From a marine actinobacterium PHSC20C1 (GTDB lineage Bacteria > Actinomycetota > Actinomycetes > Actinomycetales > Microbacteriaceae): 64,000 nucleotides of DNA. Location of the stretch: positions 2,067,726-2,131,725 of the forward strand of contig CH672415.1 of NCBI GenBank assembly GCA_000153145.1, in the 5' to 3' direction. The position numbers and the translations under genes were made by a program. This document shows, piece after piece, positions 49,326-64,000 of this stretch. Under the pieces are notes generated by a model. That model did not search any database. It saw only the letters and a program-made list of their open reading frames with translations, and had not been told where the DNA came from. The number at the start of each line of letters is the position of its first letter. Positions within the stretch are counted from its first letter, which is position 1.

Positions 49326-50051
49326 CTAGCGGACCGCTCGTGCTGACGTTGCCGCTGTTGCCACCGCGGAGTCGGTGCTCGGTGCTGGACGGATGCCGCG
49401 AACCAGTAGATAGCCGACCGTCCACAGCTCGCCAACTGTCGCTGGCAACACGAGCGCATCGGCGAGGGCGGTCGGGAAGGTCGCGATTGTCGCGGCGAGC
49501 ACGGTGCTGAGCACGTAGCCGATTCCGCCAGCAATGAGGATGATGCCAAGGATGCGCGGCATCCGTTTCGTGGAGATCATGAACCAGCCCATCGGAATCA
49601 GCCAGAGGCCGAAGAAGACTCCGCCGGCGGCCCAGAGCGCATCCGAGAGCGTGTAGAGCAGCGCGACAGTTCCGGCCGTGTCACCTGCCGGAGCAAGCGC
49701 CGGGGTGGTGGCCACGCTGACCGCGGTGGAAAGCATTGCTGCGCTTGCCAAGATCGCTGCGGCATTAGCCATTCCGAAGGTTGCGACGGCGTAGGCGGCG
49801 ACCGGGCGTTCGCCCCGAAAGAGGGCGTAGAAGCCGAGTGCAGCGAGGGCCTGTGTGATGACGACGAGCAGTTCGATGCCAACGCTGAGGTGGGCGAGCC
49901 CGCTGTTCTCGAGGATGTTTGCGACTGTTGTGGTTGGATCATCCGCTCCCTGAAGCTGCGGCCGGATGACGAGAAATCCGAGTAAACCGGTCACGGCAAG
50001 GCCGAGGTAGGCGGCTCCCGTGAGTCGAGCGGTGCGGGTGGGCGAGTTCAT
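49326..50051 (-). CDS. DUF4386-family membrane protein
   Basis: 241 residues with about six helices; LTGAAYLGLAVTGLLGFLVI at the start and WLIPMGWFMISTKRMPRILG late are typical of DUF4386. Function unknown. GGAGGAAAAA precedes the ATG at 50051. It is divergent from the membrane-protein/XRE pair, and both share the operator pair between them. Confidence 0.85.
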   Translation of the reverse strand: MNSPTRTARLTGAAYLGLAVTGLLGFLVIRPQLQGADDPTTTVANILENSGLAHLSVGIELLVVITQALAALGFYALFRGERPVAAYAVATFGMANAAAILASAAMLSTAVSVATTPALAPAGDTAGTVALLYTLSDALWAAGGVFFGLWLIPMGWFMISTKRMPRILGIILIAGGIGYVLSTVLAATIATFPTALADALVLPATVGELWTVGYLLVRGIRPAPSTDSAVATAATSARAVR

Positions 50052-50069
50052 TTTTTCCTCCACGATTGA

Positions 50070-50087
50070 TGTAAAAGATTATTGACA
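50070..50087. promoter_or_regulatory. XRE operator 1
   Basis: TGTAAAAGATTATTGACA, an imperfect dyad that includes the -35 TTGACA. It matches the other site (50116) in inverted orientation. Confidence 0.55.
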
Positions 50088-50110
50088 CCTGACGGTAGAT
50101 CCTTCATACT
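50082..50110 (+). promoter_or_regulatory. Promoter of the membrane protein/XRE pair
   Basis: TTGACA (50082-50087), 17-nt spacer, CATACT (50105-50110). Confidence 0.7.
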
Positions 50111-50115
50111 CGTAA

Positions 50116-50133
50116 TGTCAAGAATTATTTACA
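50116..50133. promoter_or_regulatory. XRE operator 2
   Basis: TGTCAAGAATTATTTACA has dyad symmetry TGT-AA-AATT-TT-ACA just downstream of the -10. AT-rich in a GC-rich context. Confidence 0.6.
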
Positions 50134-50145
50134 TCGGAGGTTTTC

Positions 50146-50580
50146 GTGGTCTACGAAGAGCGAAACAAATGGTCGGCACTTATCGTCACGCTGATCACCA
50201 CGATCGTCTACGTTTTCGTGGTGCTTAAGGCAGCGAACGGTGGTCCGCTCACCGCTGTCGAGTGGTGGCCGATCATGGCGTGGACCATCGGCGTCAGCAT
50301 TGTCGCCACGATCGTCATTAGCGTGCTCTGGGGCATCATCGCCGGAATATTCGATCCTGATGGAGTGGGAACATCCGACCAACGCGACCGCGATATTTCC
50401 CGCATGGGTGATCGAGTCGGTCAATCCTTCATCGTGATCGGCGGACTCGGCGTCATAGTGCTGAGCGCCTTCGACGCCAACACTTTCTGGATCGCCAACA
50501 CCATGTTCCTCGGCTTTGCGCTCTCGGCAATCGTTGGTGGCGTCGCCTCCGTGATCGCCTACCGCCGCGGACTCGTCTGA
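50146..50580 (+). CDS. Four-helix membrane protein paired with XRE regulator
   Basis: 144 residues, four hydrophobic helices (about 10-28, 40-65, 92-108, 114-138). GGAGG 5 nt before the GTG fixes the start. Family not firmly recognised. Its stop overlaps the ATG of the XRE gene by one base. Such small membrane-protein/HTH pairs are common and often act as one autoregulated unit. Confidence 0.8.
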   Translation: MVYEERNKWSALIVTLITTIVYVFVVLKAANGGPLTAVEWWPIMAWTIGVSIVATIVISVLWGIIAGIFDPDGVGTSDQRDRDISRMGDRVGQSFIVIGGLGVIVLSAFDANTFWIANTMFLGFALSAIVGGVASVIAYRRGLV

Positions 50581-50801
50581 TGGTCAAGCCCACCAAGGTC
50601 ACCAACAACATCCGGGCGCTCCGTGAAGCCGAAGGGCTGACGCAGGCAGAACTTGCCAGGCGCATCGGGGTGACGCGTCAGACTCTCATCGCGATCGAGC
50701 AGGGCAGATACTCGCCAACCCTTGAGCTGGCATTTCAGATCTCACGAAACTTCGGCACCGGTCTCGACGACGTCTTTCACTACCCTGCAGAAGCAGAGTA
50801 G
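50580..50801 (+). CDS. XRE-family helix-turn-helix regulator
   Basis: 73 residues, essentially one HTH domain: LREAEGLTQAELARRIGVTR and TLIAIEQGRYSPTLELAFQI. Close to the YgzD/PopR-like small regulators. Translationally coupled to the membrane protein before it. The TGT-N12-ACA dyads at 50070 and 50116 are its probable sites. Confidence 0.92.
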   Translation: MVKPTKVTNNIRALREAEGLTQAELARRIGVTRQTLIAIEQGRYSPTLELAFQISRNFGTGLDDVFHYPAEAE

Positions 50802-50823
50802 CGAGGGGCCGGGTGCGTAGCGC

Positions 50824-51264
50824 TCAGTATTCTTCGCAGATCACCACGGGGATGTCGCGGGTGGTCTTGGACTGATACCCGGCGTATCGAGAGTTCGTGG
50901 CAACGATCTGCGGCCACAGTTCGGCCTTCTCCGTAGCGTCCGCCGTGCGGGTGTGCACGTTAAGAGTGCGACCGCGGACGGTCACCTTGGCATCCGGGTT
51001 GGCCTTGAGATTGCGGTACCACTGGGGGTCGCGATCGCTGCCACCCATTGAAGCGACAAGTACCCATTTCCCGGTGCTGTGAACAGGCGCGGTGAGCATC
51101 GTCGAACGCTGGAGGCCCGAGACCCGCCCCTTGGTGTGCAACTCGACGGCGGGCATCCGGCCAAGCGTCCACCCCAGCCGACCACCAGTCACGGTGAGTA
51201 TCACGCGATGTATCCCATTCATTAGTTTCATCACGAGGTCACTGGATCGTTCGCGCCGGCTCAT
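50824..51264 (-). CDS. Deazaflavin-dependent nitroreductase-family protein
   Basis: 146 residues. VELHTKGRVSGLQRSTMLTA, then GGSDRDPQWYRNLKANPDAK and a C-terminal RYAGYQSKT, all typical of F420-dependent split-barrel reductases (Ddn-like). A second member of the family at 37826 supports an F420-producing host. GATAAT 6 nt before the ATG indicates a leaderless gene. Confidence 0.88.
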   Translation of the reverse strand: MSRRERSSDLVMKLMNGIHRVILTVTGGRLGWTLGRMPAVELHTKGRVSGLQRSTMLTAPVHSTGKWVLVASMGGSDRDPQWYRNLKANPDAKVTVRGRTLNVHTRTADATEKAELWPQIVATNSRYAGYQSKTTRDIPVVICEEY

Positions 51265-51270
51265 TGCCTC

Positions 51271-51276
51271 ATTATC
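51271..51276 (-). promoter_or_regulatory. Leaderless -10 box (GATAAT)
   Basis: GATAAT on the minus strand ends 6 nt before the ATG at 51264. Confidence 0.5.
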
Positions 51277-51289
51277 TCGCGACGCTGAG

Positions 51290-51295
51290 TAAAGT
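51290..51295 (+). promoter_or_regulatory. Leaderless -10 box (TAAAGT)
   Basis: TAAAGT ends 6 nt before the ATG at 51302; divergent from the box at 51271. Confidence 0.5.
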
Positions 51296-51301
51296 CATTT
51301 C

Positions 51302-52480
51302 ATGAACGTACTGCGCAAGCTGGTGATCGCTCGCGATATTGATGAGCCGCACCGCAAGACGACTCCGCTTGAGTTGCTGTTCGACCTCACCTTTGTTGTC
51401 GCCGTCGCCTCCGTGGTGCGACAGCTGACTCACGCCGTTGAAGTGGGGGAGGCTGGCGACGCAATAGGCCCGTTCCTCATGGTGTTCTTCTCTATTTGGT
51501 GGGCCTGGAACCAGTTCACGTGGTTGGCTTCCGCCTACGACACCGACGATGCGTTGTACCGACTCTTCACGATGTTGCAGATGGGTGGAGTGCTCGTGCT
51601 TGCCGCTGGGGTGCCGATGGCGTTCGACAGCGGCAACTTTGCGGCCGTCACAATCGGCTACCTCATCCTGCGACTAGGACTGCTTGCCACCCTCTTGCGT
51701 GCGATCAAGGACGACCCCGAGACGCGTGCGACCGCCCGACGATACGCGATTGGCATCAGTATCGTTCAAGTTGGATGGCTGCTGAGGCTGCTGTTGCCGG
51801 CCGAACTCGGAATGCTGTCTTTCGTATTCTTGGTGATAGCGGAACTGGCTGTTCCACTGTGGGCGGACCGCGCTGCGGTGCTGTCGTGGCACCCGCACCA
51901 CATTGCTGAGCGTTACGGAAAGTTCACAATTTTGGTGCTCGGCGAAAGCGTGCTTTCGGTAACGATCGCGGTGCAAGAGGCTCTACAGGACGGGCTATCG
52001 TCGTCGCTCGTTATTGCGTCAGTTACGGGACTCGTCCTAGTGTTTGCGCTGTGGTGGCTGTACTTCTCGGTGCCCGCGGCCGAGGGCCTTGAGAAAAAGC
52101 GAGAACGCTACCTGTTCTGGAACTACGGGCACTATTTCTTATACGCCGCTCTCGCAGCAGTGGGCACCGGAATTGAGATCGCTGTGCGGTCGGTGACGGA
52201 TGATCTGGAGTCGAGTGAATTGATCGTCGGGTATTCGCTCGCGCTTCCTGTCGCGCTCGTCATTTTGTTGCTGTGGTTTCTGCACGCACCGATGGTTGAG
52301 ACGGTGTCGATTCCTCGTTCGGCCTCCGCAATCGCCGCCGTCATAATTCTGGCGCTTCCGTTTGCGGCTCCGCTGGTGGGAACTATTGGGGTTGCTGTTG
52401 CCGTCACAGTTGTCACCGTTGGTCTACTCGTCGTGGCAGTGCTTGCTGCCAATCGGCGAGCAGTCGACATGATGTCGTGA
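51302..52480 (+). CDS. Low temperature requirement protein A (LtrA) family membrane protein
   Basis: 392 residues with about 11 helices. ELLFDLTFVVAVASVVRQLT near the N-terminus and ERYGKFTILVLGESVLSVTI in the middle are family hallmarks. LtrA was linked to growth in the cold in Listeria; its molecular role is unknown. Leaderless start. Confidence 0.9.
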   Translation: MNVLRKLVIARDIDEPHRKTTPLELLFDLTFVVAVASVVRQLTHAVEVGEAGDAIGPFLMVFFSIWWAWNQFTWLASAYDTDDALYRLFTMLQMGGVLVLAAGVPMAFDSGNFAAVTIGYLILRLGLLATLLRAIKDDPETRATARRYAIGISIVQVGWLLRLLLPAELGMLSFVFLVIAELAVPLWADRAAVLSWHPHHIAERYGKFTILVLGESVLSVTIAVQEALQDGLSSSLVIASVTGLVLVFALWWLYFSVPAAEGLEKKRERYLFWNYGHYFLYAALAAVGTGIEIAVRSVTDDLESSELIVGYSLALPVALVILLLWFLHAPMVETVSIPRSASAIAAVIILALPFAAPLVGTIGVAVAVTVVTVGLLVVAVLAANRRAVDMMS

Positions 52481-52491
52481 GGGAAAATAGC

Positions 52492-53112
52492 TCAGGACGG
52501 GTTTAGCCAGCGCAAGACTTCGTCATCCGTAGTCTGAGTGAAGTCGGTGAACCACTGGCCGATCGCCATGAAATGTGCGGGCCGGTGCAACGACACAAAT
52601 TCGTCGATGTTATCCCCAGGGACAAAGGCGAGTGACGAGACGGGCACCGCCAGCACGACTCTACTGGCGCCTAGCGCCCGCACTACTTGGCAGGCAGCGT
52701 GCGCGGTTGCTCCGGTCGCGATTCCGTCATCGACCACGACCGCCGTTCTGCCGTGCAGGTCGAGCGGTGGACGATCGTTGCGGAACCGCACCAACCGTCG
52801 CGCCAATTCTTTCTGCTCGCGAGCTCGCACCCGCTGCAATTGTTCGCGAGTTACGCCTAGGGAGCGAATCGTCCCCTCGTTCAACACCTCGACATTCTCC
52901 CCGATGGCACCCATCGCGAATTCGTCGTTGTACGGAACACCAAGTTTGCGGACGACGATCACGTCGAGCGGGGCATTCAGAGCGTGGGCGACCTGAGCTG
53001 CTACCGGGACTCCACCGCGGGGCAATCCCAGAACGATGGGCATTTCGGCCGTCAGATAGTCGAGTTTTGCTGCCAGCTTCTGGCCGGCATCGGAACGATC
53101 ACGGAACAACAT
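52492..53112 (-). CDS. Phosphoribosyltransferase-fold protein
   Basis: 206 residues. The PRPP loop reads VVVDDGIATGATAHAA; VVRKLGVPYNDEFAMGAIGE is typical of the stand-alone group often found with stress-protein or hydrolase genes. Base or acceptor specificity is unknown. GAGAGGTG precedes the ATG. Confidence 0.88.
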   Translation of the reverse strand: MLFRDRSDAGQKLAAKLDYLTAEMPIVLGLPRGGVPVAAQVAHALNAPLDVIVVRKLGVPYNDEFAMGAIGENVEVLNEGTIRSLGVTREQLQRVRAREQKELARRLVRFRNDRPPLDLHGRTAVVVDDGIATGATAHAACQVVRALGASRVVLAVPVSSLAFVPGDNIDEFVSLHRPAHFMAIGQWFTDFTQTTDDEVLRWLNPS

Positions 53113-53235
53113 GGTTCACCTCTCCGTGATGGAAAGAATAGTTGCACCTATTTAGTGGCGGGTGTGAAATGAAGTAATGGGCTACTCTCAGCGCTCTGTT
53201 TGGGGTGCCTAGCCCGTAAAGAGAGTAGGGACGTC

Positions 53236-53625
53236 ATGTTTACTCCGACTAGCGCGTTTTCAGGGTTCAGTGTCGATGACATTGTCGCGGCGAAAGCTTT
53301 CTACGGTGACACTCTCGGCCTAGACATGGCCGACGATGAGATGGGATCGATTCGGATGTCGCTGCCCGGCGGCGGCAGCGTGTTTGTTTATGCGAAAGAC
53401 GATCACCAGCCGGCGAGCTTCACGGTCCTCAACTTTGTCGCCGACAACGTGGAGGCCGCCGTTGACGAACTCAACGGGGCCGGGATCGTCACAAAAATCT
53501 ATGATGACTCCGGCGACGATGCTGGATTCTCGACCGATGCGAAGGGCATCGCGCGCGGGCACGGGATGGAAATTGCGTGGTTCAAGGATCCTGCCGGAAA
53601 CGTACTTGCAGTGTTGAACGGGTAG
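53236..53625 (+). CDS. VOC-family (glyoxalase-like) protein
   Basis: 129 residues, the usual size of a two-module VOC protein. FSGFSVDDIVAAKAFYGDTL opens the first module and EIAWFKDPAGNVLAVL, with the metal-site Glu, closes the second. Function unknown; it may be a small-molecule lyase or a resistance-type binding protein. It is followed by a shortened VOC gene on the other strand. Confidence 0.88.
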   Translation: MFTPTSAFSGFSVDDIVAAKAFYGDTLGLDMADDEMGSIRMSLPGGGSVFVYAKDDHQPASFTVLNFVADNVEAAVDELNGAGIVTKIYDDSGDDAGFSTDAKGIARGHGMEIAWFKDPAGNVLAVLNG

Positions 53626-53632
53626 TTGCTGT

Positions 53633-53815
53633 TTAGGCGTCCGGCAACCGCTGTTGAAGTGACCACTCGTTTCCGTCGGGGTCGGCAAAGTAGACGAACC
53701 GGCCCCACGGTTGTTCATTGACGTCGTCATGAAATCCCAGCTGATCAACGTAGAACGCTTTCGCGCGATCAACATCGGTTACGGGAATGGGAACGAGTTC
53801 AATCTTCCAGTCCAT
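53633..53815 (-). CDS. VOC-family protein with apparent internal deletion
   Basis: 60 residues. The first half (MDWKIELVPIPVTDVDRAKA) is a normal VOC N-terminus and the last part (FVYFADPDGNEWSLQQRLP) a normal VOC C-terminus, but about 65-75 residues expected between them are missing with the frame kept. GGAGAGG precedes the ATG. It may be a remnant, or fold only as a swapped dimer. Confidence 0.7.
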   Translation of the reverse strand: MDWKIELVPIPVTDVDRAKAFYVDQLGFHDDVNEQPWGRFVYFADPDGNEWSLQQRLPDA

Positions 53816-53890
53816 GGCCTCTCCATTGATAGGTCGAGTCGGTATTTTCCAGCATGTTAGCGCCGACTACTGACACACCTGTGCGCCAAG

Positions 53891-54568
53891 ATGGTGTTCA
53901 TGCCAGAACTTCAACGCCAGTTCACTGTGACGCTCGAGCGTGTTCTTTCAGGTGTTGCGACAGTCGCAACGGAGAGCTCGCCCGATTGGTTGAAACGCCC
54001 GGGTGAAGCAGAGATGGGCGCTCTTTGGCCACTCGCGCAGCGCGTGTATAGCAAATTGACAGAGCTTGAATTGCCGAGGGTGGCGCCGCTGCGAGAACGA
54101 CGGCGAGTTGATGTGGTCCTCTCGTACGCCAGCGGGGAACGAAGGATTGTTGAATTTGACGAACGGCAGCATTTCACTGAGGCACGATTGAGGACGCTGG
54201 AATTCTATGACCATCTTGCCCCTGTTGCATTTGAGGTGGGGCAGTGGCGTGAACGTTGCGAAAAACTGCGGGGGCGTGAAGCAGGCGGTGGGTTCGCCGC
54301 ACCTAAGCCTCCGTTGTTTCCGGGCCCGGGTGGTAGGCACCGACAGCGCGCGTTTTGCGATTTCCTCGCGGATGCCCTTCCTTCTGTACATGGCTGGCTT
54401 CCGACAGTGCGGTTTCAGGATGTCGAGACTAAGAAACCGCTGTCGAGCGGTGACGCAGATAGCGCGATAGTTGAACTGTGGAGCACTAAGACCGGTGAAG
54501 TCATGGCGTCTCGCGATCGGTTGGCCAGTCTGACTGATGTCGAAGCTCGCGTCGGGCTTGGAGAGTAG
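53891..54568 (+). CDS. Unknown protein with nuclease-like (D-x-E-x-D) core
   Basis: 225 residues, not recognised as a named family. RRVDVVLSYASGERRIVEFD followed by ERQHF resembles a PD-(D/E)XK-type core (Asp, then a Glu-x-Asp, then Gln-His), and the C-terminal half is basic. An ATG at 53900 is an alternative start. It is separated by two bases from the GIY-YIG gene, so the two form an operon at the edge of the defence island. Confidence 0.75.
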   Translation: MVFMPELQRQFTVTLERVLSGVATVATESSPDWLKRPGEAEMGALWPLAQRVYSKLTELELPRVAPLRERRRVDVVLSYASGERRIVEFDERQHFTEARLRTLEFYDHLAPVAFEVGQWRERCEKLRGREAGGGFAAPKPPLFPGPGGRHRQRAFCDFLADALPSVHGWLPTVRFQDVETKKPLSSGDADSAIVELWSTKTGEVMASRDRLASLTDVEARVGLGE

Positions 54569-54570
54569 CA

Positions 54571-55317
54571 ATGGAACAGTTCTCGCCGTTCGAATCCGAG
54601 GCGCTTGGTTACTACGTATATGTGTACACGGATCCGCGCAATGACCAGCCGTTCTACATCGGCAAGGGCACCGGGAATCGGGCTTTCGCACACTTGAAGG
54701 ACTCTGGTGACTCTTCGAAGGTGGCTCGCATCGCTGAGATCCGCACGGCTGGTGTCGCGCCTCGAATTGAGGTTCTGGCGTTTGGCTTGGATGAGACGAC
54801 CGCGTTCAAGGTGGAGGCTGCAGCAATTGATCTGATCGGTTTTGAGAACCTCACCAATAGGGTCGTCGGCCGTGGAGCCAAAAAATTCGGGCGAATGAGC
54901 ATTGACGAGGTCCACGGAAAGCTGTTTTCTGAGCCGGTCACACAGTTTGAGCATCCGTGCGTCCTTATCAAGATCAACCACACCTATTCCGACACCACCA
55001 AGTTGGGTGCGATTGAGCTCTACGATGCCACTCGAGGAACGTGGAAGGTGAGCCTCGCCAGTGCAACAAAAGCACAGTACGCCCTTGCAGTTTTCGGAGG
55101 CACGGTGCGAGAGGTTTATGAAATTGCAGAGTGGTTGCCTGCTGGCTCGACCATGTATGCGGATCCGGAGCGCGATGTGGGTGCGGCGACACGATACGAG
55201 TTTGTCGGTCGACTCGCCCCTGTTGCCGTGCGCAAGCTATACCGGTGGAAATCCGTTGCCCATATGTATAAGCCTGGCGCAGCCAACCCGATAATGTACG
55301 TTGGCCCCGCGGCCTAA
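54571..55317 (+). CDS. LEM-3-like GIY-YIG domain protein
   Basis: 248 residues. LGYYVYVYTDPRNDQPFYIG followed by KGTGNRAFAHL is the GIY-YIG core of the bacterial LEM-3-like group, with the Glu in KVEAAAIDLIGFENLTNRV as probable metal ligand. The C-terminal part (about 120-248) ends YKPGAANPIMYVGP and is a separate domain. Predicted DNA-cutting protein; context with restriction-modification genes suggests a defence role. Confidence 0.82.
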   Translation: MEQFSPFESEALGYYVYVYTDPRNDQPFYIGKGTGNRAFAHLKDSGDSSKVARIAEIRTAGVAPRIEVLAFGLDETTAFKVEAAAIDLIGFENLTNRVVGRGAKKFGRMSIDEVHGKLFSEPVTQFEHPCVLIKINHTYSDTTKLGAIELYDATRGTWKVSLASATKAQYALAVFGGTVREVYEIAEWLPAGSTMYADPERDVGAATRYEFVGRLAPVAVRKLYRWKSVAHMYKPGAANPIMYVGPAA

Positions 55318-55349
55318 CTCGCCACTGTTCTCATGGCGGATCGCAACGT

Positions 55350-55706
55350 TTAAAGGTTGAACCACAGCCAGTCTTTAGGGTCGAATCTCGCGGCCGCAGC
55401 AGCGTCCAGAGCCGGGTTTGCTGTGAGAGCCTCGGATACCGCAGCCGCGAGAAGAGCTTGGGCGTTCGCTGCGGGTTTGTATCCGCGGATTGGAGTTCGG
55501 TGTGACCTAACCATGACGGCGCTGATGTTCTGAAATTTGAACTCGACCGAACCCTTCGACCTGTTGTTCAGCGATTCACGAAGTTTCGCATTCGCGTGGG
55601 ATTTGACGAAAGGAATCCCTTCAATCTCGAGTTTGAGCATTGCCAGATAAGACTCGACGGCTCGGCGTACCTCGTCGTCCGACCAGACTTCGTTCTTACC
55701 TTGCAT
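55350..55706 (-). CDS. Orphan N-terminal domain of restriction-type proteins
   Basis: 118 residues. EVWSDDEVRRAVESYLAMLK, LNNRSKGSVEFKFQNISAVM and GYKPAANAQALL match the domain that in many bacteria precedes DUF3883 or nuclease modules in restriction-like proteins. Here it stands alone. It is the third gene of the minus-strand operon, 36 nt after the methyltransferase. It could be a specificity/binding subunit or a remnant. A GTG at 55718 would add four residues. Confidence 0.7.
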   Translation of the reverse strand: MQGKNEVWSDDEVRRAVESYLAMLKLEIEGIPFVKSHANAKLRESLNNRSKGSVEFKFQNISAVMVRSHRTPIRGYKPAANAQALLAAAVSEALTANPALDAAAAARFDPKDWLWFNL

Positions 55707-55742
55707 GGATTTCCGCACTTCTCACGTCACGATCGATCTCGC

Positions 55743-56894
55743 TCACAGGTATGGCTCCAGTTGGCGTGCAATGGCTTCGCCTAGGGGAATCGGGACCGCG
55801 TTTCCGATTTGCCGCGCAATCGCCGTCTTGGACCCGACAAACTTGTGGTCTGCAGGGAAGCCCTGGATGAGGGCGGCCTCATAGTGAGTGATCGCGCGGT
55901 GCTCGGTGGGGTGCAAATAGCGCCCCTTTTCTGGCTTGAAGAACTCGGTGCGAATCGTCACTGACGGTTTGTCCCAGTTGAGGCGGCCCATGACGTCACC
56001 GGAGCCGGTCGTATGGTTTCTCCAGCACTCAGGCAGAAGGTCTGGGCGGTTCTTTGCGAGGTCAAACCTGTTGCCGTTTTCAGGGATGGCTGCAAAACGG
56101 GCGAGAGAGAGTTCGGTGTAGGCGCGCCCGACGTGCATCTCTGCGGGAGTGAACGGGCCCGCGAGATTCTTGTCGTTGAAAGAGGTAGAGCGTCCTGGGT
56201 GCATGGCAGTTGTCACGACTGACGCTGAGACGTTCGCTAGCACGTTCTTTACGGGCACATGCCTTCCAGCGTGGGTCGGAGTCGGAAACCCTGGGAACGG
56301 AAGAGTCTTGAGATGACCGATAATTACAGCGCGTTTTCGCGCTTGAGGCGCTCCATAGTCGGCAGCGTTGAGCACTCTGTGTTGGAACGTGTACTTCTCG
56401 AGGGCTCCGCCCTCGGAGGTTTCGGCGAGAAACTGATCGTACTGAGATGATTTAGCAAAAGCCGCGACATTCTCGACGACAAAATACTTGGGCTTTGCGC
56501 GGAGGATCGTTCGGACGTACTGCTCCCAGAGCGAGTTTCGTTCGTCCTCAGCGTCCTGCTTACCCAAGGTCGAGAAGCCTTGGCAAGGGGGGCCTCCGAC
56601 GATCAGATCAGCTCGGGGAACTTTCTCGCTTTCGAGCCAGTCTTGGATGCTGCCCGAATAAACGATGTCCGGACCAAAGGTGGCTTCGTAGGATGCCGCG
56701 GCTGCGGTGTCCCATTCGACTGCGCGTACAGTCTCGTATCGAGCTGATGCTTTTTTGAAGCCTGCGGTGAGGCCGCCAGCGCCCGCGAACAAATCGATCA
56801 CACGGATTGGTTTCTTGCGTCGACGATTAGGTCCAGGGTTCGCCAGAGCTGGGGTCTCAGATTGCACAGGCGTGGGTGGGGAAAGCGTCGGCAC
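55743..56894 (-). CDS. DNA (cytosine-5)-methyltransferase
   Basis: 383 residues. SAM-binding VIDLFAGAGGLTAGF, catalytic Cys104 in VGGPPCQGFSTLG, FVVENVAAF, GAPQARKRAVII and the C-terminal RQIGNAVPIPLGEAIA are all present, so it should be active. The target-recognition region lies at about 195-300. GTG start, 9 nt after the stop of the GHKL-sigma gene, so they are one operon. Target sequence is not predictable by eye. Confidence 0.93.
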   Translation of the reverse strand: MPTLSPPTPVQSETPALANPGPNRRRKKPIRVIDLFAGAGGLTAGFKKASARYETVRAVEWDTAAAASYEATFGPDIVYSGSIQDWLESEKVPRADLIVGGPPCQGFSTLGKQDAEDERNSLWEQYVRTILRAKPKYFVVENVAAFAKSSQYDQFLAETSEGGALEKYTFQHRVLNAADYGAPQARKRAVIIGHLKTLPFPGFPTPTHAGRHVPVKNVLANVSASVVTTAMHPGRSTSFNDKNLAGPFTPAEMHVGRAYTELSLARFAAIPENGNRFDLAKNRPDLLPECWRNHTTGSGDVMGRLNWDKPSVTIRTEFFKPEKGRYLHPTEHRAITHYEAALIQGFPADHKFVGSKTAIARQIGNAVPIPLGEAIARQLEPYL

Positions 56895-56903
56895 TTCGCA
56901 AGT

Positions 56904-59900
56904 CTAGCCGGCGGCAGTGTCTTCGGGCCGTAAGCGGCTTGCGTGGTCACCGCGAAGCTTGCGGACGAGTTTTTTGCTCGGCACGACAGGTCTACGGGGG
57001 CTGTCGAGGAGCTGCCATGCGATTGCTAGTGGAGTGCGCCCTTGATCGTGCGCTATGCGGCCGACGTCGGTACCTTTTCGATAGGCGCTCAATATCCGCT
57101 CGCGCTCTGCAGGTTCCCATGCGAGACCATGGCGGGGAGCTAAGGACTCATCATCGATTGCGCCGTTTAGCGCGAGCACGATTTTGCTGAGACGCATAGC
57201 AACGTAGCGAATATCGACTTCGGCTTCGGCCTCGATTGCGGAGAGGGACCAGCCGTGACGGTAAAGGTCGACGATGTGTGCGTCGCTGCCGAGCTCGATC
57301 GGGACCTGTTGTTCGGGGGCCTCTGGCTCGGGTGCGGGGGCCTCGATACGCGCTGCGGCCTGCGAGAGAGGTTCTTTTCCGAGGAGGACGGGAGGCGTCG
57401 CGACAAACGCTCGTGGCCGAATGCTAAATGGTTTGAGGAGGTCGCTGCCCTCGCGATCAAGTTCTGCGTCGAGAAAGTCCCCCAAGCGGCCTTGAACTTC
57501 TGCACTGGAACGAAGACTTTCCATTGTCTTTTTCTCGATTTGTCGGATGCGTTCGCGAGTTACGCCGAAGATATCGCCAATGTGATCGAGAGTTGCGGGG
57601 TCTTGACCCCCGATGCCGAATCGCATCTGGATTGTCGTTGATTCTCGCTTGGGTAGGGCGCTAAGCACATTGTTCATAGCGCCACGGAACTCAGCATGGA
57701 TGAGCAGGTCAACGGGCGCGACGGACTCGTCGACCAATAGGTTATGCAGCGAACCGAAACCCTCACCTGGATCGAGTTCCTTATCAATCGAGAGGAAGGA
57801 GTATTCGTAGCCAAGCGCACGGGATGCGTCTTGTTCCGTGACTTCGGCCCCAGCAGCGAGCTCCGAAATAGTGGGCTTCCGGTCGTTCTGAAGTTCAAAA
57901 CTGCGAGCGGCTTGACGTAGTTTGTTTTGTTGCTCCACCATGTGCACGGGGATGCGAATTGTGCTCCCCAGATCGGCGAGAGCCCGGGTGATGGCTTGGC
58001 GGACCCACCAGGTTGCATAGGTGGAAAACTTGAACCCTTTCATGTAGTCAAACTTCTGTATCGCACGTAACAGGCCAAGCGCGCCCTCTTGAATCAGGTC
58101 GGCATAGTCCAAACCATTATTGACGTACCGACGTGCGATCGAGAACACCAAACGGTAGTTGGATGCGGCGAACCGGGCAAAGGCCTTTTCACCATTCTTC
58201 GCGACCCATTGGAGCTCACGACCCGATGGTGAACGTTGTTCGCGCCTGTCCAGCAAGTCGAACTGTTCTTGAGCGAAGAGGCCCGCTTCGATTTCTCGTG
58301 CGAGCAACACTTCCTGATCAGCGCTGAGAAGAGGAAAGTCATTAAGTCGTTGTCGCAGATCGAGGACGAGATCGTCTGATGCTCCGAGCACGTCGGGAAT
58401 CAGCTGCATTCTTTCGCCGTCGTCCGTTAGCTCGCCTCGGGCTGCCTCGCGTGCATAGCGCGCATCTCGCGCTTCATCTTTAGCGGCTTGAAGAGCTGCT
58501 TGTTCCGCGTCCTGGGCAACTTCACGTTTGATCCGAGCGGAGATGACGCGATCAATATCCGAAGGAGTCGGCTGTCCGTGAGATTCACGCTCGCTCATTT
58601 CGCTTTCCGGCGCCTGCGCCTCGTCTTCGCTGACGGTTGAATTGTCGTCGGGCACCGCAAAAACAGGAAGGGCATCGGCGTCGTCTGGTTCGGCGACAGT
58701 TGGGTCGAACGCTTTTGCGCCGATCTCGGCGATAGTGGTGAGCGCGAGGACGCGTTGCCAGGCTTCGAGCTGATCGAGCGTACTTTGTTGAGGTCGTTCG
58801 ATGGCGAAGTGCTTTTCTACCAGAAGGTAGATCGAGAGCGAGAGCCCGTCACTTCCGGGGAGCGATGCGCGGTAGCCAGCGTTCATCCAGAGGGTGCGCC
58901 GGCGATGGTCGAACTGAAACAGTCGGTCGTCGTCGAGTACGCGCCAACGAATTGACGCGGGTTCTGAATCATCTCTCGACACCAACATCTCTTGGACGAG
59001 GCTGCGGGTTGCGTCCGTTAGCCCGACTCCGAGTGCAGTTATCGGTTTCGGGCCGACTCGCCTAACATTTGCTGCTTGCATCGTTTCGCGGGCGTGTTCT
59101 AGATACTGCCGAAAGCTTGTCTCATCGTCAGCTGTTGCAGCTTCGAGGGCGTGCATGAATTCAGGACGGAGTACCACTCCGCGCTTCTCTGGGTTGATAG
59201 CTATCGCACCGAGCATCTCTTTGCTGATGTCGATTGAGACTCGAGCGAGCTGCCACTCGGTTCGGTGATCTGAAAGGAGTGAATGCCACCCACCTGCTTG
59301 AAGCATTCTGCCGTTGCGATAGATGTAGAGGCCTTGGCCGTCGATTCGCGGCCTTCCCAAAAGTTTGGCTGCAGGAGTCTGCGAATTGGGCGGGAGAATG
59401 TGACACGTTGCAGAGAGCACACCACCATCCGGCAAATCGGCAGTGATCGTTTTCGGGTATCCGGCTCGGCCCGAGTGATTGAAGCCGAAGGGGTCTACTG
59501 ATTCGACGGTTCGTGGAGCGCCAGACTCGCTGAACTCGGTATCGAACTCGTCGATCTGTATGCGCAAGGCGCCCTCAGCGATGGGGCGGTGAAAAGTGAG
59601 TCCCAGCTCACCGCGGAGATCGTTAATTACTCCGTCAAGCCATCTCTGCCTGACCGATGGGGCAGCGGCAACCGAGACCGCGTCGAGCAGCGACCATTCG
59701 ACAACCGTTCCGGTTGACTGGATCCCCCGGTGAGTTCCTAGATGGTAGCCAGCCCATGCAGCCGACTCGGTGAGCACCTCGATGTCGAAGTTGCCGCCAA
59801 CATCGTTGCGGAGCATCCGGACACCATGCATCGCTTCATAGCCGCAACTTGTGAAAACTCGTAGACAGGCGCCCTGGCTCATCGATGCTGCTTTTAGGCC

Positions 59901-60230
59901 CATGCCGAAGTGGCCCAGTGAGTCAACGTCGTATTTGCGCTGTTTGCCGAGGGTCATCGCGTCTATGAGTTGATCGCTATTCATGCCAGTGCCATCGTCG
60001 GCGATACGGATGCTCTTAACTAGACCGCTATCGACCATGAAACGGATGCTGATGCGTTCTGCTCCCGCATCGATCGAGTTGTCTATGAGGTCCGCGATCG
60101 CACTGTTGAGAGAGTGACCGCGGCCGATGGCGCTGAGAACTGACGGGTCGGGTTTGAGGGACATCACGCTGGCGACGTCTTTATCGACAACGGAAGCGTC
60201 GAGCACTTCGGCCGCGGGCTTGTTGAGCAT
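56904..60230 (-). CDS. GHKL (MORC/HSP90-like) ATPase fused to an RpoD-type sigma-70 factor
   Basis: 1108 residues in one uninterrupted frame. GHKL ATPase about 28-180: IADLIDNSIDAGA (47-57, with Asp where most have the catalytic Glu), DDGTGM (78-83), GHFGMGLKAAS (106-116); an S5-like transducer region follows to about 400. A variable acidic and coiled linker spans 510-615. Sigma region 1.2 is about 620-650; region 2 about 684-770 with DLIQEGALGLL and FKFSTYATWWVRQAITRAL; region 3 772-850; region 4.2 with VTRERIRQIEKK (890-901). A further 200 residues carry two HTH-like segments (985-1021, 1042-1079). First gene of an operon with a cytosine methyltransferase. Probable TACGAT -10 box gives a leaderless start. 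Confidence 0.92.
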   Translation of the reverse strand: MLNKPAAEVLDASVVDKDVASVMSLKPDPSVLSAIGRGHSLNSAIADLIDNSIDAGAERISIRFMVDSGLVKSIRIADDGTGMNSDQLIDAMTLGKQRKYDVDSLGHFGMGLKAASMSQGACLRVFTSCGYEAMHGVRMLRNDVGGNFDIEVLTESAAWAGYHLGTHRGIQSTGTVVEWSLLDAVSVAAAPSVRQRWLDGVINDLRGELGLTFHRPIAEGALRIQIDEFDTEFSESGAPRTVESVDPFGFNHSGRAGYPKTITADLPDGGVLSATCHILPPNSQTPAAKLLGRPRIDGQGLYIYRNGRMLQAGGWHSLLSDHRTEWQLARVSIDISKEMLGAIAINPEKRGVVLRPEFMHALEAATADDETSFRQYLEHARETMQAANVRRVGPKPITALGVGLTDATRSLVQEMLVSRDDSEPASIRWRVLDDDRLFQFDHRRRTLWMNAGYRASLPGSDGLSLSIYLLVEKHFAIERPQQSTLDQLEAWQRVLALTTIAEIGAKAFDPTVAEPDDADALPVFAVPDDNSTVSEDEAQAPESEMSERESHGQPTPSDIDRVISARIKREVAQDAEQAALQAAKDEARDARYAREAARGELTDDGERMQLIPDVLGASDDLVLDLRQRLNDFPLLSADQEVLLAREIEAGLFAQEQFDLLDRREQRSPSGRELQWVAKNGEKAFARFAASNYRLVFSIARRYVNNGLDYADLIQEGALGLLRAIQKFDYMKGFKFSTYATWWVRQAITRALADLGSTIRIPVHMVEQQNKLRQAARSFELQNDRKPTISELAAGAEVTEQDASRALGYEYSFLSIDKELDPGEGFGSLHNLLVDESVAPVDLLIHAEFRGAMNNVLSALPKRESTTIQMRFGIGGQDPATLDHIGDIFGVTRERIRQIEKKTMESLRSSAEVQGRLGDFLDAELDREGSDLLKPFSIRPRAFVATPPVLLGKEPLSQAAARIEAPAPEPEAPEQQVPIELGSDAHIVDLYRHGWSLSAIEAEAEVDIRYVAMRLSKIVLALNGAIDDESLAPRHGLAWEPAERERILSAYRKGTDVGRIAHDQGRTPLAIAWQLLDSPRRPVVPSKKLVRKLRGDHASRLRPEDTAAG

Positions 60231-60236
60231 TCCTTC

Positions 60237-60242
60237 ATCGTA
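60237..60242 (-). promoter_or_regulatory. Leaderless -10 box of the GHKL-sigma operon (TACGAT)
   Basis: TACGAT on the minus strand ends 6 nt before the ATG at 60230. No convincing -35 is seen. The rest of the gap to 60478 shows no gene or clear repeat. Confidence 0.45.
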
Positions 60243-60478
60243 TTAGTGCGTAGCGACATCGGTCGCCCTCCAGTTCACGGGTGGGATGCCCACGCTGATC
60301 GTGTGCAGTCGGCAAACCCGAAGTGTGCTCACCCAGTCCGAGGGCCACGCGGATAATTCCTCGCATAGCTCGCGGCAGGTGGGCCTCAGATGTCGCCACA
60401 ATGAGATAGAAAGGGAGTACGCCCTGGCCGGGGGTGCGTTTCGCGCATGCCGTGCCACACAGAGTCATGGAGTTTCAC

Positions 60479-63310
60479 GTGCCGAAACGCAAACTGATCG
60501 AGGTCGCTTTACCCCTCGAGAAGATAAACCAGCAGTCTGCTCGCGAGAAATCGATTAGGCACGGGCACCCTTCAACGATGCACTTGTGGTGGGCTCGCCG
60601 GCCACTTGCTACAGCCCGCGCCGTGCTTTTTGCCCAGCTGGTCGACGATCCTAGCGAGAATGCGCCCGAGTATCGTGACGAGGCAGAACGCCGCGAAGAG
60701 CGTGATGTTGACGCCTACGTCGAGCGCCGAATCATTTCGGAACGCGAGCGCTTGTTTGACCTGATCGAGCGCATGGTCGACTGGGACAACCTGGGTGACG
60801 AGGAGCTCTTCGACCAGGTGCGGGCTGAGATCATGCGCTCTACGGACAACAACCCGCCAGCGATTCTCGACCCGTTCGCGGGGGGTGGAACGATTCCTTT
60901 GGAAGCACAGCGGCTAGGGCTTGAAGCACATGCGAGTGACCTGAACCCCGTCGCGGTGTTGATCAACAAGGCGCTCATTGAGATCCCGCCGAAGTTCGCT
61001 GGACGTGATCCTGTCTTTCCTGACGCGGTCGGGCAACGTAATTCTTGGCCGAAAGCATCCGGTCTTGCTGAAGACGTGCGCCGCTACGGTTCGTGGATGC
61101 GAGATGAAGCCGATAAACGCATCGGCCACTTGTATCCCAAAGCGACGCTGACTGATGGTTCAACAGCGACCGTTATCGCCTGGATTTGGGCACGCACCGT
61201 CACTTGCCCAAATCCTGCATGCGGTATTTCTATGCCGCTGGTGCGTTCCTGGTGGCTTGGTAAGAAAAAGGGAAAAGAGGCCTACGTCGTGCCTTCGGTT
61301 CGCGATGGCAAAGTTGCCTTCACGATCGGCCACGATCCAAGCGCTGCACCCATCAAGGATTCGGATGGCACCGTCGGAAGAGCTGGCGCTACTTGTATTT
61401 CGTGTGGCACGGGAGTGTCGCTTGAATACGTACGATTGCAGAGCAGGGAGATTGGCCTTGGTGCGCAACTCATGGCCGTGGTCGCGGACGGGCCCAGCTC
61501 ACGTATCTATTTGCCGCCGACGGACGAACATATCGCGGCAGCGGACCTTCCAATGCCGCAGAGTCTCCCGCAGGGTGCGCTTCCAGAGAAAGCTCTTTCC
61601 TTTCGCGTTCAGGCTTATGGCATGGTCGCGTGGGTAGATCTTTTCACGAATCGACAGTTGGCCGCGCTCACGACGTTCAGTGATCTTGTAGTCGAAGTGC
61701 GCGAGAAAGTGTTCCGCGACGCCGCTGTCGCCAGCCGCATCGAAGGCGAACGTCTCGAGCGGGGTGGGGCAGATGTGGCAGCCTACGCAGATGCCGTAGC
61801 CACATATCTTGGCATGTCGGTCAGCAAATTCGCGGCACGAAACAATGTGATGTGTGGATGGGAATCCGGGATGGATCGCCTTCGCGGTTCGTTCCAACGC
61901 CAAGCCATCCCGATGACTTGGGACTACGCGGAGGCCATGCCCTTGACCGGCACCGGAGGTTCCTTCTCTGCTGTGATTTCCTCCGAAGCAGAAGTGCTTG
62001 ACGCTTTTTTCCACCAGGGGACTGAGATTGGAATTGCGACGCAGCAGGACGCGGCTACCCGCACTTACTCAAATGCTGTGGTTTCAACTGATCCGCCCTA
62101 CTACGACAACATCGGATATTCGGATCTGTCGGATTTCTTCTACGTCTGGCTTCGCCGGTCTTTGAAGGACCTCTACCCAGACTTGCTAAGCACCTTGCTT
62201 GTCCCTAAGGCGGAAGAGCTCGTCGCAAATCCGCATAGGCACGGGGGAAAGGATGCGGCTCGTGAGTTCTTCGAAGATGGCTTCGAGGATGTATTTCGGT
62301 TAGCGAGACTTGGCGTGCAGAATGACTTCCCCGCGACGGTTTACTACGCGTTCAAACAGGCTGAGACTGATTCGAATGGGGTCGCTTCGACCGGCTGGGA
62401 GACTCTACTCGCGAGTATGATCCAAGCAGGTTGGATGATAACTGCGACCTGGCCCTCCAGATCTGAGATGGCGAGCCGGATGATCGCGTCCGGGACAAAC
62501 GCACTCGCCTCATCAATTGTGCTTGCATTGCGCCCGCGTCCGGAAGATGCCCCGATTATCGATCGGCGCACACTGCTCTCTGACCTTCGTTCATCACTTC
62601 CTGAATCGCTTCGGGTGCTCCAACAGGGAAGCATTGCTCCAGTCGACCTTGCTCAGGCGGCGATAGGCCCAGGGATGGCAATTTTCTCCCGGCATTCGAA
62701 AATTCTTGAACCGAACGGGCAAAAGATGGGCGTTCGCGATGCTCTCCGCGCCATCAACGCGATTCTTGATGAAGTTCTCTCCGAGCAGGAGGGCGATTTC
62801 GATCGCGAAACTCGTTGGTGCGTCGCGTGGTTCGAGTCTCATGGCTTCGAAGTTTCTTCGTTCGGCGAGGCAGAGACTTTAGCAAATGCAAAGAACGCGT
62901 CGATAAGTGGGCTAGCCCGCTCCGGCGTGCTGTCAACTGGTGGGGGCAAAGTGAAGCTGTTCGAGCCTGCGGAGCTTCCGGAAGATTACGATCCGCGCGC
63001 GGACGACCACCTGTCCTTGTGGGAAGTAGTTTTGCACATGGCAAAGGCACTTGATGACAAGGGCCTGGACGCTGCGGGGCTGATTCTTGCCCGCGCCGAA
63101 GGCCGAGGCCTCGATATGACCGCGGCTCATGAGCTGGCTTACCGTCTCTACGCAATCAGTGAGAAACGTGGGCTCACGAAGCCAGGAATTCTATTCAACG
63201 CACTCGGCTCGTCCTGGCCAGAAGTGCGGTCGGCAGCGAACTCCGCGGAATCAGCCCAACCAGTAGATGTCGCGGACCAGCTCGACTTCGACTCGCTTAC
63301 GGAAGGTTAG
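60479..63310 (+). CDS. DUF1156-family anti-phage-associated DNA methyltransferase
   Basis: About 943 residues. KLIEVALPLEKINQQSAREK and SIRHGHPSTMHLWWARRPLA are the DUF1156 opening; SAM motif DPFAGGGTIPLEA begins near residue 131; zinc-type cysteines appear in CPNPACG and CISCG; the catalytic DPPYYDNIGYSD is near residue 538. Probable amino-type (N6A or N4C) DNA methylation. GGAG 6 nt upstream supports the GTG at 60479; an ATG at 60467 is possible. Such genes usually accompany DUF499 and DUF3780 genes in defence loci. Confidence 0.88.
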   Translation: MPKRKLIEVALPLEKINQQSAREKSIRHGHPSTMHLWWARRPLATARAVLFAQLVDDPSENAPEYRDEAERREERDVDAYVERRIISERERLFDLIERMVDWDNLGDEELFDQVRAEIMRSTDNNPPAILDPFAGGGTIPLEAQRLGLEAHASDLNPVAVLINKALIEIPPKFAGRDPVFPDAVGQRNSWPKASGLAEDVRRYGSWMRDEADKRIGHLYPKATLTDGSTATVIAWIWARTVTCPNPACGISMPLVRSWWLGKKKGKEAYVVPSVRDGKVAFTIGHDPSAAPIKDSDGTVGRAGATCISCGTGVSLEYVRLQSREIGLGAQLMAVVADGPSSRIYLPPTDEHIAAADLPMPQSLPQGALPEKALSFRVQAYGMVAWVDLFTNRQLAALTTFSDLVVEVREKVFRDAAVASRIEGERLERGGADVAAYADAVATYLGMSVSKFAARNNVMCGWESGMDRLRGSFQRQAIPMTWDYAEAMPLTGTGGSFSAVISSEAEVLDAFFHQGTEIGIATQQDAATRTYSNAVVSTDPPYYDNIGYSDLSDFFYVWLRRSLKDLYPDLLSTLLVPKAEELVANPHRHGGKDAAREFFEDGFEDVFRLARLGVQNDFPATVYYAFKQAETDSNGVASTGWETLLASMIQAGWMITATWPSRSEMASRMIASGTNALASSIVLALRPRPEDAPIIDRRTLLSDLRSSLPESLRVLQQGSIAPVDLAQAAIGPGMAIFSRHSKILEPNGQKMGVRDALRAINAILDEVLSEQEGDFDRETRWCVAWFESHGFEVSSFGEAETLANAKNASISGLARSGVLSTGGGKVKLFEPAELPEDYDPRADDHLSLWEVVLHMAKALDDKGLDAAGLILARAEGRGLDMTAAHELAYRLYAISEKRGLTKPGILFNALGSSWPEVRSAANSAESAQPVDVADQLDFDSLTEG

Positions 63311-63314
63311 AGTA

Positions 63315-64000
63315 ATGGCCGAAATCTCCAACAGGAACCGCGTCGATGAAGCACTCCTTCTTGTTGCGGAAGCGCTAGATCCCTTCATCGAACGCGAAGT
63401 CGCCCAGCACATACCTGAAGGAGAGGACTGGACAGTCCTCGTGCGGCTCCGAGACGAAGAAGCCGGCAAATACGGGCTCACCTACTCACGTACCGATCCC
63501 CAGACTCAACTCAAAATGATCATCGGTCGATTCGGAAAACTCGGCTACCTATTCGACCGTTCGCTCAGCCGTGCCGAAAAGAACTTCGCCAGCGAACTTG
63601 CCTCCGTGCGCAACGACTTCGCCCACTTCAACAAAGCCTTCGGGGCCGACGACACCTACCGCGCACTCGATACTGCGGAACGACTGCTTCGCGCAATTGG
63701 GGCAGTCGCCCAAGCAGACACAGTGCGGAAGTCTCGATCCGACGTGCAACGCAAAACCTACGCCGAAGAGACAAGACGCGACACCCGCGCGGCGACCAAA
63801 ATGCCAGAACTCGGAGCAGCAGAACTGTCACCGTGGCGTGAAGTTTTGGCACCCCACACCGACATCGCATCAAATGACTTCGCGCGAGCGGAATTCGCTG
63901 CCGACCTTTATCAAGTGTCTACAGGCCTGGAAGCGTCATCGGACTACAACGACCCCACCGAGTTCTTCAACCGCACCTACCTCACCGACGGCCTAAAAAC
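63315..64000 (+). CDS. Swt1-type HEPN / DUF499 ATPase, N-terminal part (runs off right edge)
   Basis: The first 228 residues are visible. An N-terminal Swt1-family HEPN-like domain (about 1-120) contains LASVRNDFAHF, close to the R-x(4-6)-H motif of HEPN ribonucleases. It is followed by the start of the DUF499 region (LSPWREVLAPHTDIAS, DPTEFFNRTYLTDGL). DUF499 proteins are large P-loop ATPases in anti-phage loci with DUF1156 partners. GGAAGG precedes the ATG, four bases after the DUF1156 stop. Confidence 0.85.
   Translation, partial: MAEISNRNRVDEALLLVAEALDPFIEREVAQHIPEGEDWTVLVRLRDEEAGKYGLTYSRTDPQTQLKMIIGRFGKLGYLFDRSLSRAEKNFASELASVRNDFAHFNKAFGADDTYRALDTAERLLRAIGAVAQADTVRKSRSDVQRKTYAEETRRDTRAATKMPELGAAELSPWREVLAPHTDIASNDFARAEFAADLYQVSTGLEASSDYNDPTEFFNRTYLTDGLK

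Follow-up and report, generated by a model that had tools for sequence, protein, structure and literature searches.

The 64,000-nucleotide stretch of the marine actinobacterium PHSC20C1 analysed here (the window) encodes a protein in which a MORC-type GHKL ATPase is joined to a sigma-70 factor, and a short conserved box lies ahead of the operon that diverges from its gene. From these sequences we predict that the fused sigma switches on the neighbouring divergent operon through the box. A dedicated sigma for this single operon is the best supported part of the proposal; possible gating of the sigma by the MORC ATPase is less supported.

An ATPase and a sigma factor in one chain

A sequence-only reading of the window, made earlier, had described one frame of 1108 residues, with an N-terminal GHKL ATPase and S5-like transducer followed by a 'complete housekeeping-type' sigma factor. 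The open reading frame (ORF; Table 1) indeed runs from an ATG without internal stops, and among the best 120 of 125 significant relatives found by searching with the ATPase part, 77 carry the sigma region 2.3 motif in the same domain order and 6 more carry variant motifs. The stop-free frame and the shared architecture rule out a frameshift or assembly artefact, and because the architecture recurs in homologues down to 38% ATPase identity, there is no local assembly error. Pfam profiles confirm both families above curated cut-offs, as HATPase_c_3 (residues 40-128, E 2e-24), Sigma70_r1_2 (residues 631-653, E 4e-5) and sigma regions 2 (residues 689-754, E 1e-21) and 4 (residues 855-907, E 8e-14). 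Region 3 (residues 766-816) scores 17.8 bits, below its cut-off of 25.3, and is helical and SigA-like in a structure model; region 1.1 has no match in the fusion, the ATPase and linker occupying its place. The description 'complete housekeeping-type' was nearly right, apart from the missing region 1.1 match and the strong divergence of regions 3.1 and 3.2. The protein ends in a helical domain that the earlier reading had not mentioned and for which no Pfam family exceeds its cut-off in the window; among relatives, HTH_38 is over the cut-off in P0032 and below it in P0078. The domain also occurs in sigma-less relatives and is missing from some fusions; those of loci L025, L165 and L166 end shortly past region 4.2, with the box still present.

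The ATPase module contains the N-box ADLIDNSIDAG (D47, D50, N51), DDGTGM, GHFGMGLKAAS and GT174-175, and the four GHKL ATP-binding motifs (D47/D50/N51, D78-G80-G82, G106-G111-K113 and G174-T175) are invariant or almost so. The motif GhXhhpXXRhl, which according to the available text of PMC2292703 separates MORCs from paraMORCs, appears as GLYIYRNGRML at residues 300-310, with G300, Y304, R305 and R308 invariant (alignment A3), and the transducer lysine K349, also invariant in the alignment, corresponds to the conserved basic residue of the S5-fold domain. An AlphaFold2 (AF2) model of residues 26-390 matches MORC and SMCHD1 ATPase modules, which are its top folds. Iyer's motif and these predicted folds support assignment of the ATPase to the MORC type, in agreement with the earlier reading.

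A diverged sigma that keeps its promoter-reading residues

The alignment of fused sigmas comprised 77 sequences, the window's and 76 relatives; they were chosen by the region 2.3 motif, which partly fixes positions 427-436, so that the variant-motif proteins P0057, P0083, P0086, P0095, P0105 and P0112 are not among them, and neither is P0082, which is truncated. Residues D403, Q437, R441, R451, R562, R584, E585, R588 and Q589 are unchanged in all 77, Q406 and H455 are each kept in 76, E458 in 71 and T440 in just 55, which bears out the earlier claim that the promoter-reading residues are retained. Regions 3.1, 3.2 and 1.2 have diverged in the fusions, where the mean per-column match to the genome's own RpoD is 17% (region 3.1) and 27% (region 3.2), as against 96-100% for other RpoDs. 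The RpoDs of 14 genomes are 91% identical among themselves, and the fused sigmas average 46%. In two close pairs the ratio of nonsynonymous to synonymous substitution rates (dN/dS) is 0.08 and 0.18 for the sigma and 0.15 and 0.09 for the ATPase. With its promoter-reading residues kept and dN/dS low despite 46% identity, the fused sigma is under purifying selection for promoter reading rather than decaying; core binding and promoter-specific initiation are predicted from the residues kept.

Against the RpoD equivalog TIGR02393 the fused sigma scores 236-240 bits, below the cut-off of 354, and given this score and the separate RpoD in the genome it is not the housekeeping RpoD. A sigma tree of 63 rows, including 42 of the 77 fused sigmas, places these in several clades outside the RpoD group, on long branches.

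A conserved box at fusion loci

A string common to the gaps beside fusions was first spotted at four loci; in the window it reads TGAGATAGAAAGG. The pattern TGNGATAGAAAR, in the direction of the operon, occurs at 5 distinct loci in 2.1 Mb of locus DNA (overlaps included), every one a fusion locus. In a later sample of four fusion loci and one sigma-less locus, L165 and L166 carry the exact box where it was expected and the sigma-less locus has none; in L163 and L164 the box is TAGGCTAGAAAAG/TAGGCTAGAAAGG, 80 and 79 nt ahead of a DUF1156 remnant. These last two loci have their DUF1156-DUF499-MORC genes reduced to a deletion scar upstream of PD-(D/E)XK, with the first DUF1156 codons near the end of a second MORC gene and the variant box persisting upstream. 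Where the operon is intact and begins with DUF1156 (five loci), the box lies 77-81 nt from the aligned GTG.

Twenty-five fusion-less DUF1156 loci were taken as controls, from which L072 (short upstream region) and L028 and L105 (start unmatched) were excluded. In the remaining 22 (21 distinct; one from the same genus, several from the same family) the best upstream match has 3 mismatches, and L107, L108, L110, L111 and L062 represent the operon without fusion or box in the same genus and family. Non-fusion loci, at 3.66 million strand-bases, contain the 13-mer exactly 0 times, with one mismatch 6 times and with two 32 times. Genome-wide, the 12-mer occurs once each in G345, G187, G091, G522, G587 and G403, always at the fusion locus, and twice in the window's genome, at the fusion locus and antisense within a PcrA-like gene. 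A Fisher test of the box in fusion (7/11) versus fusion-less (0/22) loci gives p = 8e-5, which is indicative only because the loci are related.

In the simplest reading, the box would be a -10 element, TAGAAA, plus a GG discriminator, without any conserved -35. The gap outside the box is not conserved, and a canonical promoter search of the window's gap gave no match. Just past the box (window 60415-60440) lies an imperfect palindrome around GGCCGG, found with differing arms in L025, L052, L165 and L166 also, possibly an operator or a 5' hairpin.

The surrounding locus

Table 1. Features of the fusion locus in window coordinates.
Feature	Residues	Position	Strand	Remark
MORC-type GHKL ATPase / sigma-70 / C-terminal helical domain fusion	1108 aa	56904..60230	-	
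GHKL + S5-like ATPase module	~20-505	58716..60173	-	
Sigma-70 module, regions 1.2, 2, 3 (weak) and 4	616-925	57456..58385	-	
C-terminal helical (HTH-like) domain	~980-1100	56931..57293	-	
Cytosine-5 DNA methyltransferase (Dcm)		55743..56894	-	next gene after fusion, same strand
Fragment resembling N-terminal part of PADLOC PDC-S36	122 aa	55350..55718	-	
Conserved box, candidate private promoter of divergent operon		60402..60414	+	77 nt ahead of GTG 60479
DUF1156 adenine-methyltransferase-like (HmaB-like)	943 aa	60479..63310	+	GTG start aligned with relatives

The 5-methylcytosine methyltransferase that the earlier reading had placed in the operon is indeed there. In all 11 fusion loci examined Dcm comes after the fusion, and the two together diverge from the effector operon; sigma-less MORC-helix-turn-helix (HTH) relatives occupy the same position. 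A full-length relative of the PDC-S36-like fragment (L101, 287 aa) has a NOV_C domain as well, which the window's fragment lacks. The divergent operon matches Pfam DUF1156, DUF499 and HEPN_Swt1 and, in PADLOC, HmaB (1093 bits) and HmaC (853 bits), so that the DUF499 ATPase and DUF1156 methylase pair of BREX-related Type-1 and Hma systems is present; the longest ORF of the DUF1156 gene starts at 60434. This gene content supports the restriction-modification-like setting proposed earlier, and by its relatives the divergent operon is likely to serve anti-phage defence.

Beside the fusion operon lie a GIY-YIG protein (window 54571-55317, plus strand; PADLOC PD-T4-3 match, 154 bits) and a protein with a weak DUF7255 match (window 53891-54568, plus strand). 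An Rfam scan of window positions 50000-64000 gave nothing at gathering scores. Elsewhere, the metagenome protein P0118 (845 aa) fuses a MORC-type ATPase to a DUF4420 PD-(D/E)XK domain, a sign that the products of the two work together. Genome G133 has a second kind of ATPase-sigma fusion (L147, 10232-12772, minus strand; 846 aa), with a ResIII/RAD25-like SF2 helicase at residues 6-408 and sigma regions 1.2 (494-526), 2 (559-632) and 4 (754-800), ~11 kb from the sigma-less MORC gene of that genome.

Distribution and history

The fusion is sparsely distributed. Among the matches listed it occurs in Salinibacterium, Agromyces, Planctomonas, Leifsonia, Cryobacterium, Microbacterium, Clavibacter, Curtobacterium and Rathayibacter, with one additional fusion from Micrococcales; membership of the same family was confirmed for eight fusion genera and holds for the Planctomonas genome too. 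A search started from the most divergent fusion gained one more. Relatives of the fusion ATPase are present in 12 of 398 Microbacteriaceae genomes at E <= 1e-30; within the genus of Microbacterium dauci, 6 of 366 genomes have one at E <= 1e-60. Viral contigs gave 13 pattern matches, none confirmed as a fusion relative; 266 phage records matched, none covering >80% of the query, and five of the matches listed cover the sigma part alone. Plasmid records matching the sigma number 217, and the three inspected are two rpoD and one annotated rpoS.

An ATPase tree of 79 rows (41 sigma-bearing, 33 sigma-less and 5 of 7 GHKLB) has a main sigma clade with support 99/99, consisting of 36 sigma-bearing rows and P0014, and two other sigma lineages. 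The sigma-less P0014 groups with P0010 (100/99), and seems from this position to have lost its sigma as a close relative of the fusions.

How the fusion might act

MORC and MutL proteins, GHKL ATPases of this class, dimerise with ATP and form a clamp on DNA. We tentatively propose a one-protein immune relay, in which the MORC ATPase would sense invading DNA and close on it, and its own housekeeping-type sigma would fire the adjacent restriction operon from a single private promoter. Coming after the transducer, at the place that region 1.1 would take, the sigma could be hidden or presented directly by the ATPase; detection, transduction and promoter choice would lie in one chain, and the regulon would be one promoter. 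Of the outcomes suggested earlier, the switching on of host defence genes is likely, these being here the divergent operon, and only the presence of a sigma speaks for 'diverting polymerase'.

Several observations weigh against the predicted switching on of the operon by the fused sigma. There is no T at -7 in the box and no conserved -35, though the -35-reading residues are kept; neat covariation of the box with region 2.4 was looked for and not found, and position 440 is E in L025 and S in L022 with the same box in both. The Curtobacterium fusion loci L023 and L026 lack the box, the 12-mer has 0 occurrences in the two Curtobacterium genomes, and in five fusion-less genomes it occurs 1, 0, 2, 1 and 0 times elsewhere. 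From the box to the PD-(D/E)XK start is about 176 nt in L022 and 113 nt in L103, and another, different GHKL ATPase gene stands between fusion and box in L103 (~11.5-13.3 kb) and L052 (~8.1-10 kb), where the gap is not simple. The catalytic residue of MORC and MutL proteins is Glu; D47, an Asp, sits at what we take to be its position, making ATP hydrolysis uncertain. Given the apparent loss in P0014, a locus of that type also seems able to manage without the sigma.

Rather unlikely, in our view, is timing of the controller-protein (C protein) kind, in which a constitutive sigma would merely hold back the restriction operon in a newly entered cell while Dcm and the fusion build up, the ATPase being part of the restriction machine and not a gate. 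Unlike sigma factors, C proteins are small HTH regulators; a timer could do without a MORC ATPase in its chain, and the same place is taken in other loci by sigma-less MORC-HTH relatives. The constant divergent arrangement of fusion and Dcm and the one dedicated site nevertheless suit a timer, as do the regulator-effector fusions known for C proteins in the available text of PMC3850674. We think it improbable that the box is another regulator's site, or a common promoter element passed down together with the locus, with the sigma in some other role or decaying. The box-positive loci are related and their counts not independent, which also tells against our own proposal, and the exceptions L023 and L026 and the GGCCGG palindrome, which could be an operator, fit such a site; yet the remainder of the gap is not conserved, the fusion-less operons of the same genus and family lack the box, and the sigma is under purifying selection.

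Region 3.2 is the active-site finger of sigma. We give little credence to the fused sigma as a melting head for a nuclease: regions 3.1 and 3.2 have diverged whereas the residues for -10 reading and melting are retained, and P0118 exists, but the conserved box would be left unexplained and the -35-reading residues are fixed as well.

Comparison with known systems

The MZA anti-phage system (mzaABCDE), which Gao et al. are said to have described in 2020, includes a sigma factor for whose job we know of no explanation. In the available text of PMC9523054, the sigma factor MzaA and the MutL-like ATPase MzaB are separate genes in one defence locus, mzaA, 'a sigma factor', is a separate gene found in just a few of the related systems, no fusion, dedicated promoter, DUF1156 or DUF499 is named for these, and the function and mechanism of the related system are left open. 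Here, instead, sigma and ATPase form one chain from one ORF, with Dcm, DUF1156 and DUF499 in addition. The NCBIfam models for MzaA to MzaD score 282, 112, 275 and 63 bits, all far below their equivalog cut-offs of 800, 850, 1500 and 420; MzaE has no match among the locus proteins scanned, some small ORFs lying outside the scan. The MzaA model aligns to nearly all of E. coli RpoD (residues 5-612; 447 bits, versus 343 for the RpoD of the window's genome), and the model scoring best with the fused sigma is the one that best fits the genome's own RpoD. MzaA and the fused sigma are possibly two separate sigma captures, judging by profile scores alone.

The novelty that the sequence-only reading had seen in pairing a sigma with such an ATPase does not hold, since MZA pairs both as separate genes and databases contain many fusions, filed as 'sigma-70 family RNA polymerase sigma factor'; no description of a single-chain MORC-sigma fusion or of its dedicated promoter was found in searches of open-licence papers. 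The prokaryotic MORC family of PMC2292703 shares the GHKL motifs, S5 domain, GhXhhpXXRhl motif and restriction-modification-type neighbourhood with Dcm; its available text describes no sigma-factor fusion, with 0 occurrences of 'sigma factor' in a full-text search. With BREX-related (BR) Type-1, as far as given in PMC12839542, and PADLOC Hma systems the locus shares a DUF499 ATPase with N-terminal HEPN and a DUF1156 N6-methylase. Controller proteins of type II systems, in the sources available, activate or time a restriction gene beside a methyltransferase gene. The locus resembles CalpL-CalpT-CalpS of type III CRISPR in defence signalling with a sigma factor and a transcriptional response as its output. 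There, in the available text of PMC12751052, a protease activated by cyclic tetra-adenylate (cA4) destroys an anti-sigma; here one chain contains both the sensor-like ATPase and the sigma, and neither an anti-sigma nor a nucleotide signal was identified.

A sigma and a MutL-like ATPase in one locus (MZA) and sigma release as a defence output (CalpL/T/S) are known. The fusions make the question of the MZA sigma directly testable, with a sigma covalently tied to a MORC-type ATPase and a candidate promoter at exact coordinates. If our proposal is true, promoter specificity would come with the defence locus itself and keep its toxic half quiet in the healthy cell. MORC proteins in animals and plants are chromatin silencers, and they would then have bacterial relatives that directly control transcription initiation.
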